A stretch of 64,000 nt of DNA. It comes from Acidobacteriota bacterium (GTDB taxonomy: Bacteria; Acidobacteriota; Terriglobia; Terriglobales; Acidobacteriaceae). Every line of letters starts with the position of its first letter. The stretch's first letter is position 1. Below are positions 2,736-34,210 of the stretch, in pieces. The position numbers and the translations under genes were made by a program. The notes under the pieces are model-generated. The model was not told the DNA's origin, made no database searches, and saw only the letters and a list, made by a program, of their open reading frames with translations. The stretch is taken from positions 1-64,000 of the forward strand of contig JABDHA010000001.1 of NCBI GenBank assembly GCA_013285705.1, written 5' to 3'.

Positions 2736-3222
2736 GAAATCTCCACAGGTAACGACTCACTTTAGGATGCCTCATGCAAATTACGAGACTTGAACGATTC
2801 GTCGCAAATTCTGCTTTTAGCTTAGAGGGGAGGTTCGCTCCGGCTTTGTCTGCGCTTGAGCCTAGGGCAGTGAGGTGGTTGCCTTTGGCGGCGGTTTTAT
2901 TCTGGAGACTAGGGTCCCGGCTTCTATTGGGAGGCGCTTTGCGCCTCTTTCTGTTTTTAGGCCTTGCTCAGGTTTAATGGCGATTAGATTTTTTGCTCAG
3001 CAGATCGGGCTTCGATCAGCGAATTTAGCTATCTCACTCAAGCCAAAGAAGGCTTGAATGGGCTACCCGCCTATCCAAACAACGGATTTCAAATGGCAAC
3101 ACACTGCTGATTTTTATCTACACTTTAGGCGCTAAGTACGATATAGTTCTTATGGAGGTTTCCTATGGACCGGCCTTAGTTAATCTGCCGACTCAAGATT
3201 TGAAGACGAAGTGAAAGTCTCG
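2736..3222. other. Intergenic region with hairpins and a dispersed repeat
   Basis: There is no convincing gene in this 487-bp stretch. The open frames at 2774-3057 lack protein-like composition and overlap structured DNA. A perfect 7-bp inverted repeat (GAGGCGC TTT GCGCCTC, 2931-2947) is followed by T-rich sequence, like a terminator for plus-strand transcription, though no plus-strand gene lies upstream. At 3043-3069 the sequence CCAAAGAAGGCTTGAATGGG leads into a CTACCCG motif; a close relative recurs at 52634-52666. Confidence 0.5.
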
Positions 3223-4368
3223 TCAAATTCCTGTGAAATCACTATCCTGTAAAACTTTCCCTCCCAAGTCTGTTTCCCACAGTGCTTTAAGGTCAGGGTC
3301 TTCTTTAACGTCATCGATATTTTCCGGACATATTTCAATAGACTCTTTTATCACCTTAAGTGCTCTTTTCACTAAAGATTGCCGTGCTGGTTCGTCGGCT
3401 TGACCTTCAAGTTTAAGCGAATAATAACAAGCTATGTTGAAAAGTGCATCGGAGAGATCAAGGTCTACTTGTTTTGCGATTCGCTTACGCCTTGCAAATT
3501 CGGTCAATACCCGAATGGCACTATCGTAATCCTTCTTGTATCTATACAGGCGACCTAGAGTGATGTGTAGACGTCTGTTCAGCGGAAATTGAACGCGAAA
3601 TCTAGATAGTTCGTTTATGAGGTAATCTAGGCGACTGGGGGTTTGAAGTTCTTTTCTTTTTAGAATATCAAATGCCCCACTGACCTCTCCTTCCATTTCT
3701 GCGAGTGCTAAAGCTGTTTGTGCTGTGTCATATGCGACCCCACTGTGCGTAGCCTGATCAGCGAGTAAAAAGGCTGGTCCTACAAACATACGTGTGAGTA
3801 AATAGCTACTTAAGAGGCCAAGGCCCGTGAAGTAAATGACTATGCTAGATGCGGTGGTCTGCATTCCCTCACCAAGTCCCCTACCGATGTAATCTCCTAA
3901 GCGAGCCATGTGTTCCGGAACTGATCGCAATTCAACGAGGCCGATACCAACAATCATCTTGGTTAACCAGTCAGAAATGTCTTCTAGATTTGTATTGATC
4001 CCAAGACCTAAACCTCGTTCAGCATGCTTAAGTAAGGTTATTGTTTTCTGCTCGACGTTAACATCAGGCTCCTCCTCGCGAGAGTAGGGTTGGCTTGGCT
4101 GAGTCGAGAATCTGGATTTTGACCCATGTAGATCAGTGTCGGTATCCGACCGAGATACCCTAGGTATGGCAAACAAAAATCCACCGATACCACCAATCAC
4201 GAGGCAGGCGAATGCCCATAGGAGTCCGCCCCCGATGTTTCCTTTGGCAATTCTCAAAACTACGAAAATAATTCCGCTTACGAGTAGGAGCGAAAGCGAA
4301 ACACCCGTCTGAATCAGTTTACGTCTGAGGTCCTTCTCTCCAGCCGGAGGAAGTTGACTTGCTAGCAT
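3223..4368 (-). CDS. Membrane protein with C-terminal helical (TPR-like) region, unknown function
   Basis: The open frame extends upstream to 4668, but that part overlaps the radical SAM gene and the terminator; the ATG at 4368 gives a 381-residue protein starting MLASQLPPAGEKD. Hydrophobic segments lie at about 20-40, 48-68 (ending GGIGGFLFAIPR) and 175-196. Between the second and third is the block GINTNLEDISDWLTKMIVGI (123-142), a pattern I associate with uncharacterised bacterial membrane proteins. Residues 220-370 are helical, with a TPR-like stretch (LHITLGRLYRYKKDYDSAIR), and are probably cytoplasmic. Codon use is much more AT-rich than in neighbouring genes, suggesting horizontal acquisition. 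Function unknown. Confidence 0.7.
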   Translation of the reverse strand: MLASQLPPAGEKDLRRKLIQTGVSLSLLLVSGIIFVVLRIAKGNIGGGLLWAFACLVIGGIGGFLFAIPRVSRSDTDTDLHGSKSRFSTQPSQPYSREEEPDVNVEQKTITLLKHAERGLGLGINTNLEDISDWLTKMIVGIGLVELRSVPEHMARLGDYIGRGLGEGMQTTASSIVIYFTGLGLLSSYLLTRMFVGPAFLLADQATHSGVAYDTAQTALALAEMEGEVSGAFDILKRKELQTPSRLDYLINELSRFRVQFPLNRRLHITLGRLYRYKKDYDSAIRVLTEFARRKRIAKQVDLDLSDALFNIACYYSLKLEGQADEPARQSLVKRALKVIKESIEICPENIDDVKEDPDLKALWETDLGGKVLQDSDFTGI

Positions 4369-4461
4369 AACGCGGATTTTAGACCTATTTGGTGTACCGT
4401 CAATACCGAATCGAATTATTATTTCGATCGACTCGAAACTAGACTTTACGATCAATAAAGG

Positions 4462-4494
4462 AAAAAGCCCGGCGCGAGGCCGGGCTTTTTTTTT
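4462..4494. terminator. Bidirectional rho-independent terminator
   Basis: GCCCGGC (4467-4473) pairs with GCCGGGC (4479-4485) around a 5-nt loop, flanked by five A on the left and nine T on the right. It lies just past the 3' end of the minus-strand radical SAM gene (stop at 4526) and separates it from the downstream membrane-protein gene. Confidence 0.85.
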
Positions 4495-4525
4495 GCTTTT
4501 GCGCGAAGCGCGTGTGCCTGGACGG

Positions 4526-25422: not shown

Positions 25423-26064
25423 ATGCAGGACGATCGTAGACTTTACGCGAAGAATGATGGTGAATTTGAACCTGAACCAGATGACTATTCAGAAGAAGTA
25501 GAAGATGGCTTCGGCGAAGACGAGGAAGAAGAGGAAGTAAGAATCTCTGTCTCCTCTGACGATGACGACATCGAAGATCTCGACGATGAAAAGCCGGAAG
25601 CATTTGAAGTGCCCGCGATTATCGCCGAAGAAGTAATTGAGGTGGTGTCTGCGAAGCCGCCGAAGAAGGCACCCGCCAAGAAGGCTGCAGTAAAGAAGGC
25701 CGCCGCAAAGAAATCTCCGGCGAAGAAAGCAGCAGCCAAGAAGGCGCCTGCGAAAAAGGTCGTGGCCAAGAAGGCTGCGAAAAAAGCTCCGGCCAAAAAG
25801 GCCGCAAAGAAGTCTGCCGCTAAGTCCAGCAGTAAGGGCGCTCGTAGCGGCGGTAAGGCCACGAAAAAATCCGTGGTTAGTAAGAAGAAGAGCGCCAGCG
25901 GTAAAAAACCAAATAAACGAGGTACTACTTTGGCAGTGAAGAAAGCAGCAAAGAAGGCAGCAGCCAAGAAGGCTCCTGCAAAGAAGGCAGTAAAGAAGGC
26001 AGTGAAGAAGGCTCCTGCAAAGAAGGCAGCCAAGAAGGCAACAAAAAAGGCAACCAAGAAGTAG
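25423..26064 (+). CDS. Histone H1-like protein with acidic N-terminus and AKKA repeats
   Basis: The 213-residue product has two opposite halves. Residues 1-75 are strongly acidic (runs of E and D, for example GFGEDEEEEEV and SSDDDDIEDLDDEK). Residues 76-213 are almost entirely Lys/Ala/Pro in repeating AKKAPAKKAAKK units, like the C-terminal tail of histone H1 and bacterial H1-like proteins (HC2, BpH1). The basic half should bind DNA or RNA without sequence specificity; the acidic half may mask it or bind basic proteins (inference). GGAGGG lies upstream of the ATG and a strong terminator follows. The DNA is internally repetitive, so length variation between strains is likely. Confidence 0.8.
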   Translation: MQDDRRLYAKNDGEFEPEPDDYSEEVEDGFGEDEEEEEVRISVSSDDDDIEDLDDEKPEAFEVPAIIAEEVIEVVSAKPPKKAPAKKAAVKKAAAKKSPAKKAAAKKAPAKKVVAKKAAKKAPAKKAAKKSAAKSSSKGARSGGKATKKSVVSKKKSASGKKPNKRGTTLAVKKAAKKAAAKKAPAKKAVKKAVKKAPAKKAAKKATKKATKK

Positions 26065-32074: not shown

Positions 32075-32190
32075 GCAAAGGAATAGACGGGGTGGGTGAG
32101 GGACGAGTTTACGGCGTCGAAATAACTGCGCACGGTAACTCCACTCAACATGTAATGAAACCAAAAGCTCTACCGTTTCGCCGGTATCTA

Positions 32191-32245
32191 TTAGTACCAA
32201 ATAGTACTAACATTAAATTTGTACTACTTGGTACTATGTGGTACC
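32191..32245. promoter_or_regulatory. Phased GTAC operator-like array upstream of the ParB-like gene
   Basis: GTAC occurs at 32194, 32204, 32221, 32231 and 32241, spaced 10, 17, 10 and 10 bp. Around them, 15-bp arms at 32193-32207 and 32221-32235 form an inverted repeat with one mismatch (AGTACCAAATAGTAC versus GTACTACTTGGTACT). Sites about one helical turn apart on one DNA face suggest cooperative protein binding. It is 20-70 bp upstream of the ParB-like start and also upstream of the divergent sigma factor gene. Confidence 0.7.
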
Positions 32246-32264
32246 CTGTTTTTGGAGGTGGAGC

Positions 32265-33272
32265 ATGGCTACCACGGAAACACTTTTAATCCAGGGAAAA
32301 TCGATCCCTTATCATCGCGGTTCTGTACCTGTTAGTGATTGCATTCTTGACCCGCAAAACCCTCGCATTCAGTTTCTTGTAGGGCAGAAAGCGGGATCGG
32401 CTACGGAGTCCGAACTCGAAGATCTCATTTGGGAGAAGGACGCTGTCAAGGGATTAGCCCAATCCATTCAGCAGAATGGAGGTATCTACGAGGCGATCAT
32501 TGTTCAGCGCAAAAAGAATAAATATTTGGTCCGTGAGGGAAACTGCCGTACGGTTTCGGCACGTCACTTGTTGGCACAATATCCCAATGACGCAAGATTC
32601 ATGACCGCTCCAGCGATGATTTTTGAATCCGATCTGACGGAGGAGGATCTCGCAGTTCTGCTCGCTGACATGCATGTGAGCGGGAAGATTCGTTGGGATG
32701 CTTACGAGCAAGCGAAGCACATAGCCGATCTATATAACGTCTATGGCAAAACATATGACTGGCTTGGAAACCACCTCCGACTCAGCAAGACGAAGATCAA
32801 TGAAATGCTTCTCGCCTATGCTGCGACGCGTGAATTTCTTCAAAATAATCCGGATCCTGGGAATGTTCGTAAGTTCTCCTTCTTTCATGAACTAATGAAA
32901 AAACGGGAGCTGCGGGAGCAGTTTAAAGAAGATCCTGAATTTAAGCAGAAATTCCATCGGTGGCTCGCAGAAGGAAAACTAAGCGACGCAAAGCAAGTTC
33001 GGAATTTATCGGCCGTGTTACAGAGCAAGGATGCAGCCACGGCTCTTGACAAGAAGGGGATCGAGGAAGCCAGCCGAATTCTAATCAAGAATGACCCTTC
33101 TCTAGAAAGTGACCTATTCCAAGCTGTTAAGAGGGCAACTGAGCAGCTCCGAAAGGCCCCAGCAAGTGATATTCAGGACCTCAAAACTGGAAATCCTCAG
33201 AAAGTCATTATGATTCGTGACCTGAGTAGAGCTATCGAAGATCTTTATACTCTTGCAGGAATTGCTAAATGA
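32265..33272 (+). CDS. ParB/Srx-fold protein with HTH region, partner of an HNH nuclease
   Basis: The ATG at 32265 follows GGAGGTGGAGC. The 335-residue protein has a ParB-type N-terminal domain (about 15-135) with LDPQNPRIQ (28-36), AVKGLAQSIQQNGGIYEAII (60-79) and the signature REGNCR (90-95). An HTH-like region follows (YDWLGNHLRLSKTKINEML, 164-182), then a helical C-terminal half. No Walker ATPase (ParA) gene is nearby, so it is not a normal partition locus. The downstream gene overlaps by ATGA and encodes an HNH nuclease. ParB-fold plus HNH pairing recalls GmrSD/DUF262-DUF1524 restriction proteins (analogy only). The composition is more AT-rich than in flanking genes. Confidence 0.8.
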   Translation: MATTETLLIQGKSIPYHRGSVPVSDCILDPQNPRIQFLVGQKAGSATESELEDLIWEKDAVKGLAQSIQQNGGIYEAIIVQRKKNKYLVREGNCRTVSARHLLAQYPNDARFMTAPAMIFESDLTEEDLAVLLADMHVSGKIRWDAYEQAKHIADLYNVYGKTYDWLGNHLRLSKTKINEMLLAYAATREFLQNNPDPGNVRKFSFFHELMKKRELREQFKEDPEFKQKFHRWLAEGKLSDAKQVRNLSAVLQSKDAATALDKKGIEEASRILIKNDPSLESDLFQAVKRATEQLRKAPASDIQDLKTGNPQKVIMIRDLSRAIEDLYTLAGIAK

Positions 33273-33571
33273 GCAAGTTGGCCTGGATTCCCCGCTCACC
33301 GCGTCTGCGTCATCTTTCCACGCGGGCACGTTCCTTTCGTCCGCCTACCCAGCATATCGTTCGGCCATCAATCCCAACGGATACTCGCCTCTTCGTCTGG
33401 AACAGAGATGGCGGAAAATGTGTTTCCTGCGGATCCAGGAAAGATCTGCAGTTTGATCATGTGATTCCGATCTCTCGTGGAGGTGCGAATACGGCAGAAA
33501 ATCTCGAATTGCTATGCGCAACATGCAATCAACGTAAACAAGCCAATCTGTTTGTACCCAAAGAATCCTAA
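33269..33571 (+). CDS. HNH endonuclease domain protein, 100 aa
   Basis: The product has a basic N-terminus (RSPRLRHLSTRARSFRPP) and a complete HNH/ββα-metal domain: RDGGKCVSCGSRKDLQFDHVIP, GGANTAENLELLCATCNQRK. Two CxxC pairs form the structural zinc site, and the DH and N residues of the active site are intact, so metal-dependent nicking or cutting of nucleic acid is expected. The ATG overlaps the ParB-like stop codon by 4 bp, which means the two proteins are made together. It is small, so target specificity would have to come from the partner (inference). Confidence 0.88.
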   Translation: MSKLAWIPRSPRLRHLSTRARSFRPPTQHIVRPSIPTDTRLFVWNRDGGKCVSCGSRKDLQFDHVIPISRGGANTAENLELLCATCNQRKQANLFVPKES

Positions 33572-33613
33572 GCTGTTGTCCCAGAGAGGATGGCCAGATG
33601 TGCCCCAAGTCTC

Positions 33614-33653
33614 GCCGGGTGCCCCAGGTCTCGATTTTGAGACCTGGGACTCA
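33614..33653. repeat. Palindromic CCCAGGTCTC/GAGACCTGGG repeat, copy 1
   Basis: GCCGGGTGC leads into CCCAGGTCTC, loop GATTTT, then GAGACCTGGG and TCA. A second full copy is at 35606-35649 and a degenerate one near 34574-34590. It lies 43 bp after the HNH gene, and could act as a terminator or a REP-like element; no T run follows. Confidence 0.75.
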
Positions 33654-34210
33654 AGTCTGAAGGGCTTTCCCGGTGAATGAAGCCACACAGGAAAGGGGCT
33701 TCAGTACGGAAATCTCTAACCGTGCTATCGTGATCGCACCCAAATCACCAGCACCGAACGCAAAGCGCTGCAGCGCGGGTAGCCCAAGATCTATCCATTG
33801 CAAGAAAGAAAGCCTGTCAAGCCCACAAAGTTAATAACTACTTTATTTTAAATAACTTAATCCTGAAAGCAGTTACCCCAAAATTTGCTAAACTAAATAA
33901 AGAAGGCATGGCCAGAAGCCATGCCTTTTCTGTTTCGACATCTTGATTGAAAAGCCCGATAGAGATGTAACTCAAGTAAATAGAGGGATTTAGGTGAAAA
34001 GGCAGCACGAAAATGCATCTAACTCACTGTGAAATGAGTAATTTAACGGAAATGGGGGCGGGTGCCCCCGGATCTCAACGCGACTTGGACCTAATCCCGA
34101 AGGGCAGCAGATGAAGAAAATGGCAGGAGCCTCGCTACTCTCAATGCAACCGAGAGACTATTCCATCCCGACCGGGTTTGAAGCATCATAGAAGCGAGCG
34201 AGGTCCAACC
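33654..34210. other. Gene-poor region with an orphan terminator hairpin
   Basis: No protein-like frame is seen in this 557 bp. It is AT-rich at 33820-33900. A perfect hairpin AAGGCATGGC (33903-33912) / GCCATGCCTT (33918-33927) followed by TTCTGTTT looks like a rho-independent terminator, with no gene directly upstream except the HNH gene 330 bp away. A further inverted repeat GGGGGC GGGT GCCCCC lies at 34054-34069. A small RNA or decayed element is possible. Confidence 0.5.

Follow-up and report, generated by a model that had tools for sequence, protein, structure and literature searches.

A 64,000-nt stretch of contig JABDHA010000001.1 from the genome of a soil acidobacterium (hereafter referred to as the window) encodes a ParB-fold protein and an HNH nuclease in two overlapping genes, and we favor, with slightly better than even confidence, the reading that this pair is a horizontally acquired, autoregulated controller–effector operon in which the ParB-fold protein is the controller and the HNH nuclease the effector. 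The first gene (32265 to 33272, forward strand) specifies a 335-aa protein with a helix-turn-helix (HTH), the proposed operator-binding controller, which was identified by TIGR00180, PADLOC profiles, an AlphaFold model, and purifying selection, and its start codon is immediately preceded by a GGAGGT ribosome site. The second gene (33269 to 33571, forward strand) specifies a 100-aa HNH nuclease. Both reading frames are intact, each running from an ATG to a stop codon, and they share the ATGA at 33269 to 33272. The original prediction of a ParB-fold/HTH protein overlapping an intact HNH nuclease by ATGA agrees with the two open reading frames, with Pfam, and with the structural model. The position at which it began the module, 32191, does lie in the array described below, but this is within the putative operator and the ParB gene itself opens at 32265. 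No Rfam structured RNA was matched within the window.

The second protein is a member of a standard HNH nuclease family (PF01844, E 6e-14; HNH_5 is also matched), and its predicted active residues are intact. Pfam and the homologue alignment place the HNH core at residues 51–90 (33419 to 33538, forward strand) with the pattern CxxC...DH...N...CxxCN, and the catalytic and zinc residues C51, C54, D63, H64, N78, C83, C86, and N87 are invariant in four homologues; the N-terminus is rich in arginine. In a search of 257 Bryobacterales genomes, the profile of this HNH subfamily was matched over its full length only twice, both times directly behind this ParB gene; the next matches in these genomes span mostly the common HNH core.

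The pair lies in a variable segment (32113 to 33850) that is missing from three same-genus genomes in which the flanks are conserved. The sigma-factor gene of the left flank is 88–91% identical in these genomes (G723, G748, and G603), and the flanking DNA can be aligned up to approximately position 32112; the alignment resumes at 33851 in G723, past an insert of unrelated DNA that carries a transposase-like gene (identified by eye), and at approximately 37260 in G748 and G603. Because none of the three genomes has the pair at the corresponding junction, the pair is best read as a recent, lineage-specific, horizontally acquired insertion at a variable site. As had been predicted, the pair is more AT-rich than its surroundings (47–48% GC vs. 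mostly 55–62% in both flanks), and neither ParA, nor a plasmid-partition context, nor a transposase was found adjoining it. Both genes are under purifying selection: in a comparison of the window with the Edaphobacter lichenicola locus L017, pN and pS are 0.084 and 0.84 for the ParB gene and 0.22 and 0.77 for the HNH gene, raw values that were used because dS is saturated, as is pS itself. Elsewhere in the window, an AT-rich region of approximately 1.8 kb (2736 to 4525, 44–49% GC) has no open reading frame of at least 90 aa in a simple gene pick, and a gene at 25423 to 26064 encodes what is by eye a histone H1-like protein with an acidic head and an AAKKAPAKK-repeat tail.

Sequence profiles match the ParB-like protein weakly (TIGR00180, E 2e-4, over residues 56–184; PF02195, E 0.04), and two PADLOC profiles, PDC-M38A (E 7e-16) and PD-Lambda-5_A (E 4e-8), match residues 17–221. 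The AlphaFold model has a pLDDT of 89.6 and a pTM of 0.74, based on an alignment of 14 homologues drawn from the genome loci only, and its matches in the PDB are Noc, ParB, KorB, and Spo0J (E 1e-6 to 1e-3). According to this model the protein has an N-terminal ParB/Srx fold plus an HTH, and its closest folds are those of Noc, ParB, and KorB, which are CTPases that bind DNA. The HTH region corresponds to residues 164–194 (32754 to 32846, forward strand), with predicted helices at 164–171 and 175–194. The residues E91-G92-N93-C94-R95 are unchanged in an alignment of 10 homologues, and the codons for GNCR (residues 92–95; 32538 to 32549, forward strand) mark a GxxR-type phosphate-binding motif (box II) of the kind described for the ParB-CTPase fold in a recent survey (PMC12704722). 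Box III (ENLQR-type) is not recognizable in the alignment, where (D/E)xH(V/I)xGK stands in its place; we do not hold this against the fold because orphan ParBs often lack box III (PMC12704722). Among the orphan ParBs covered by the same survey are binders of CTP, of ATP, and of GTP, and nucleotide preference is reported there as not predictable from sequence (PMC12704722). The LG-R/K-GL motif for ParA binding is absent from the N-terminus of the protein.

Upstream of the ParB gene is a putative operator array (32184 to 32244), recognized by its unique triple and by its recurrence before homologues, that consists of a GTAT at 32184 followed by five GTAC sites at 32194, 32204, 32221, 32231, and 32241, that is, in steps of 10, 10, 17, 10, and 10 bp, so that three of the four gaps between GTAC sites are exactly 10 bp. 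The array is surrounded by an imperfect dyad with arms at 32183 to 32210 and 32218 to 32245. Pattern searches of the 4.47-Mb draft genome found GTACN6GTACN6GTAC once. GTAC sites recur upstream of all nine close homologues; their 150-bp upstream regions together contain 34 of these sites vs. approximately two expected, as judged by a mean of 0.22 per start at 146 other gene starts of the same loci (Poisson P 5e-30; 0 of 100,000 resamples gave more than 13 sites); the nine homologues are kin and their sites are thus not fully independent, although the upstream DNA beyond the boxes differs widely. The sites have a consensus of approximately RGTACYRA, show a 10-bp period in several homologues, and surround a TTGAC-type promoter (identified by eye) in L018, L027, L028, L079, and L083. 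Only one or two sites are present in L026 and L027, and few or none in L029 and the tandem-ParB relatives; within the window, a simple scan detected no standard sigma-70 promoter.

Sites that recur even though their genomic contexts differ are most naturally explained by binding of the ParB-like protein itself, which probably binds the array at its own gene. Given the enrichment before close homologues, often flanking a sigma-70-like promoter, autorepression similar to that by KorB or Noc is the most likely function of the protein. A phased array on one side of the pair and a palindromic repeat on the other had been predicted as its borders. Both are present, but the array recurs together with the ParB gene in different genomes and for this reason is better regarded as belonging to the unit than as bordering it. 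The palindrome (33623 to 33648), CCCAGGTCTC-N6-GAGACCTGGG, has perfect 10-bp arms around a 6-nt loop and lies downstream of the pair. A dispersed REP element is not supported, as the palindrome is single-copy in the draft genome at up to two mismatches, and a standard terminator was rejected, since there is no T-run.

Close homologues of the ParB-like protein (57–86% identity) were identified in eight other acidobacterial genomes. An HNH gene follows the ParB gene with a 4-bp overlap, ATGA or GTGA, in four genomes: that of the window, E. lichenicola (L017/L023), a Solibacter MAG (L024), and a Bryobacterales MAG (L025). In three others, G797 (L026), G841 (L079), and G840 (L082), the ParB gene is followed instead by a gene for a 256-aa protein, and where the contig continues, in G841 and G840, this is followed by two genes for BrxC/BrxD-like proteins; in G797 the ATPase (PF10923) is located at another contig end. 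The Solibacter locus carries both the HNH gene and the ATPase set. The operon of ParB, the 256-aa protein, and BrxC/D-like proteins of 322 and 424 aa is located at L024:11505–14514, L079:10431–13443, and, in flipped orientation, L082:603–3606. Its 256-aa protein matches nothing in Pfam or PADLOC, neither PglZ nor a helicase adjoins its BrxC/D-like genes, and it is possibly a minimal BREX-related operon. In G026 (L018) the ParB gene lacks an HNH partner and lies beside genes for a NotI-type enzyme, a Dam-like methylase (identified by eye), and a DEAD-MZB helicase. The ParB homologue of G559 is truncated, ending after approximately residue 209 (L054:9221–9835) with its upstream GTAC sites retained, which gives it the appearance of a decaying copy. 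A two-gene module had been predicted, with co-occurrence across genomes as the proposed check, and the translationally coupled pair in four genomes agrees with this, but the pairing is not obligatory, as the ParB gene occurs without HNH elsewhere. Because this is so in several genomes, the HNH gene may be accessory to ParB; the tree is compatible with an ancestral HNH gene that was lost twice.

Linkage to defense genes is seen among the ParB homologues and is absent at the window locus, where no known defense genes were found adjoining the pair. In E. lichenicola (L017), a divergent PglW gene and the PDC-M61A and B genes adjoin the pair. A 36–37% identical homologue from a gammaproteobacterium (L028) is encoded between DISARM DrmD and DrmA and is followed by a PC4-like gene. 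That DISARM cluster (L028:2111–19349, from a MAG) is headed by its own GTAC-bearing promoter, and its inserted genes encode ParB-like, PC4-like, and, by eye, TIR-like and PIN-like proteins. Homologues at a greater distance, often encoded in tandem as pairs or triplets, share a defense-like gene cluster with SNF2-type helicase, DGQHR/DpdB-like, radical SAM, PIN-like, and HATPase-like proteins. This cluster recurs at L052:2724–16078, L053:40–7250, L020:3824–12101, L030:1–8392, L015:8818–20942, and L016:7062–18898 with one to three ParB-like genes, an SNF2/ZorD-like helicase, and the DGQHR/DpdB-like, radical SAM, and HATPase-like genes, the PIN-like gene being present in some; PADLOC labels only single parts of it, and as a whole it looks like a defense or DNA-modification system. 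Because close relatives of the ParB gene head other antivirus gene clusters, its probable role is to switch defense genes rather than to partition chromosomes. Of the two roles originally proposed for the module, defense gains from the repeated occurrence of homologues in defense-type loci; a mobile-element function is unsupported.

Under the controller–effector reading, the ParB-fold protein would use its HTH to bind the GTAC array, phased at 10 bp, at the operon's own promoter and keep expression of the operon low. The N-terminal fold with its GxxR motif probably binds a nucleoside triphosphate, which would switch the protein from operator binding to a different state, for example DNA clamping or release, and back. 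We infer that the trigger of this switch is probably phage infection; once triggered, the translationally coupled HNH nuclease would be made and/or directed to DNA, which it would cut, giving the pair an antiphage role. Elsewhere, the same controller is combined with other effectors, namely the 256-aa protein plus a pair of BrxC/D-like ATPases or, among distant homologues, genes inside DISARM and other defense-like clusters. KorB is a ParB-fold repressor, and defense operons must stay silent until infection; to our knowledge, few dedicated switches of such operons are known. A ParB-fold switch with a conserved operator before several effectors would, if true, bring nucleotide-switched ParB clamps, so far a matter of partitioning chromosomes and controlling plasmid genes, into immunity, and the two-gene version is small enough for direct testing in laboratory Escherichia coli. 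A bolder generalization, which we put forward tentatively and consider doubtful in its full extent, is that these proteins form a new family of NTP-switched master regulators of defense, each with its own phased GTAC operator and pluggable before an HNH nuclease, a BrxC/D-like ATPase pair, or DISARM genes, with release of the ParB clamp on infection both derepressing the operon and loading the effector onto DNA.

Four other explanations deserve consideration. The pair could be a GmrSD-like, two-chain, modification-dependent restriction complex in which ParB senses modified phage DNA and NTP and delivers the cleaving HNH protein, autoregulation being secondary. The combination of a ParB-fold protein with an HNH protein is the GmrSD plan (PMC4619093), ParB–HNH fusions are reported from bacteria (PMC12704722), and a 4-bp gene overlap suggests a complex. 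However, the ParB-like protein does not match DUF262 (PF03235, the GmrS family) at E ≤ 1, the HNH protein matches PF01844 and HNH_5 and not DUF1524 (PF07510, the GmrD family), and the alignment has REGNCR where the (I/V)DGQQR motif that defines GmrSD (PMC4619093) would be expected. Membership in GmrSD is therefore rejected by Pfam and by the motif, and the likeness to GmrSD drawn in the original prediction is not supported on the same points. The clear HTH and conserved operator, which point to sequence-specific binding, and the occurrence of ParB without HNH likewise count against a GmrSD-like complex, and we regard it as unlikely. Somewhat less probable again is a toxin–antitoxin-like addiction module with ParB as autoregulating antitoxin and the HNH nuclease as toxin: ParB is far larger than usual antitoxins, and in several genomes it lacks the HNH partner and precedes other effectors, which makes the pairing non-obligatory. 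This is so despite an arrangement that would suit such a module, in which a regulator precedes its effector with a 4-bp overlap and a palindromic operator at an orphan variable site, and despite the location of the Bryobacterales pair (L025) among other toxin–antitoxin-like genes (identified by eye).

The intactness of both genes and the purifying selection seen between the window and L017 also count against the idea that the pair is a remnant of a larger operon of ParB, HNH, the 256-aa protein, and two BrxC/D-like proteins that has lost its original job. The full set does exist in L024, no ATPase match was found anywhere in G000 (59% complete), G233, or G767, and truncated ParB remnants are known (G559), but a pair without ATPases is found in two separate lineages, and this explanation appears improbable. 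The least probable, to the point of being hardly tenable, is a partition or mobility gene pair of a plasmid, phage, or transposon. The horizontal acquisition and the ParB fold are in keeping with it, and distant relatives occur on rhizobial plasmids and viral contigs; against it, ParA, the LG-R/K-GL motif, an integrase, a transposase, and a close phage homologue are all lacking, and the context of all close homologues largely refutes it. A partition or plasmid locus was rejected on the lack of ParA and of the ParA-binding motif, and a phage or transposon origin because a single-sequence search of IMG/VR found no close relative and there was no DNA match; phage records gave one distant match. 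That the pair belongs to no known prophage or partition locus, as the original prediction presupposed, is consistent with the contexts found, none of which is of prophage, plasmid-partition, or transposon type.

Orphan ParB proteins, ParB–HNH fusions, and GmrSD have been described before; the literature searched, most subscription journals lying outside it, contained no ParB controller that is a separate protein, bears an operator, and has exchangeable defense effectors. With GmrSD (DUF262 plus DUF1524), the operon considered here shares the pairing of a ParB-fold protein with an HNH-type nuclease and the occurrence in defense islands, but it differs in its Pfam families, its separate small proteins, the HTH, the putative regulation by an operator, and the optional nature of the pairing. 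The PADLOC families PDC-M38A and PD-Lambda-5_A have a ParB-like N-terminal domain similar to residues 17–221, but their profiles are longer (715 and 440–503 aa, respectively), and PD-Lambda-5 was described as a compact RM- and Abi-like system that includes a methyltransferase domain (PMC9519451). Some relatives of the ParB gene stand at the head of an operon with BREX-type BrxC/D-like ATPases, or are located within a DISARM cluster; however, the ParB-like protein is no described core component of either system, and the window pair is accompanied by neither set. ParB–HNH fusion proteins likewise combine a ParB-CTPase fold with an HNH nuclease and are orphans lacking ParA (PMC12704722), whereas here the two are separate overlapping genes and the HNH gene may be absent. 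With the KorB/Noc/ParB family, finally, the protein shares the N-terminal ParB/Srx fold, the GxxR motif, the central HTH, and palindromic DNA sites, conserved copies of which lie upstream of the ParB gene as candidate binding sites, and with KorB it would share promoter-proximal repression. It differs in having EGNCR rather than GERRxR, an unrecognizable box III, neither ParA motif nor ParA partner, another C-terminal helical region, GTAC sites, and linkage to a nuclease or to ATPases.
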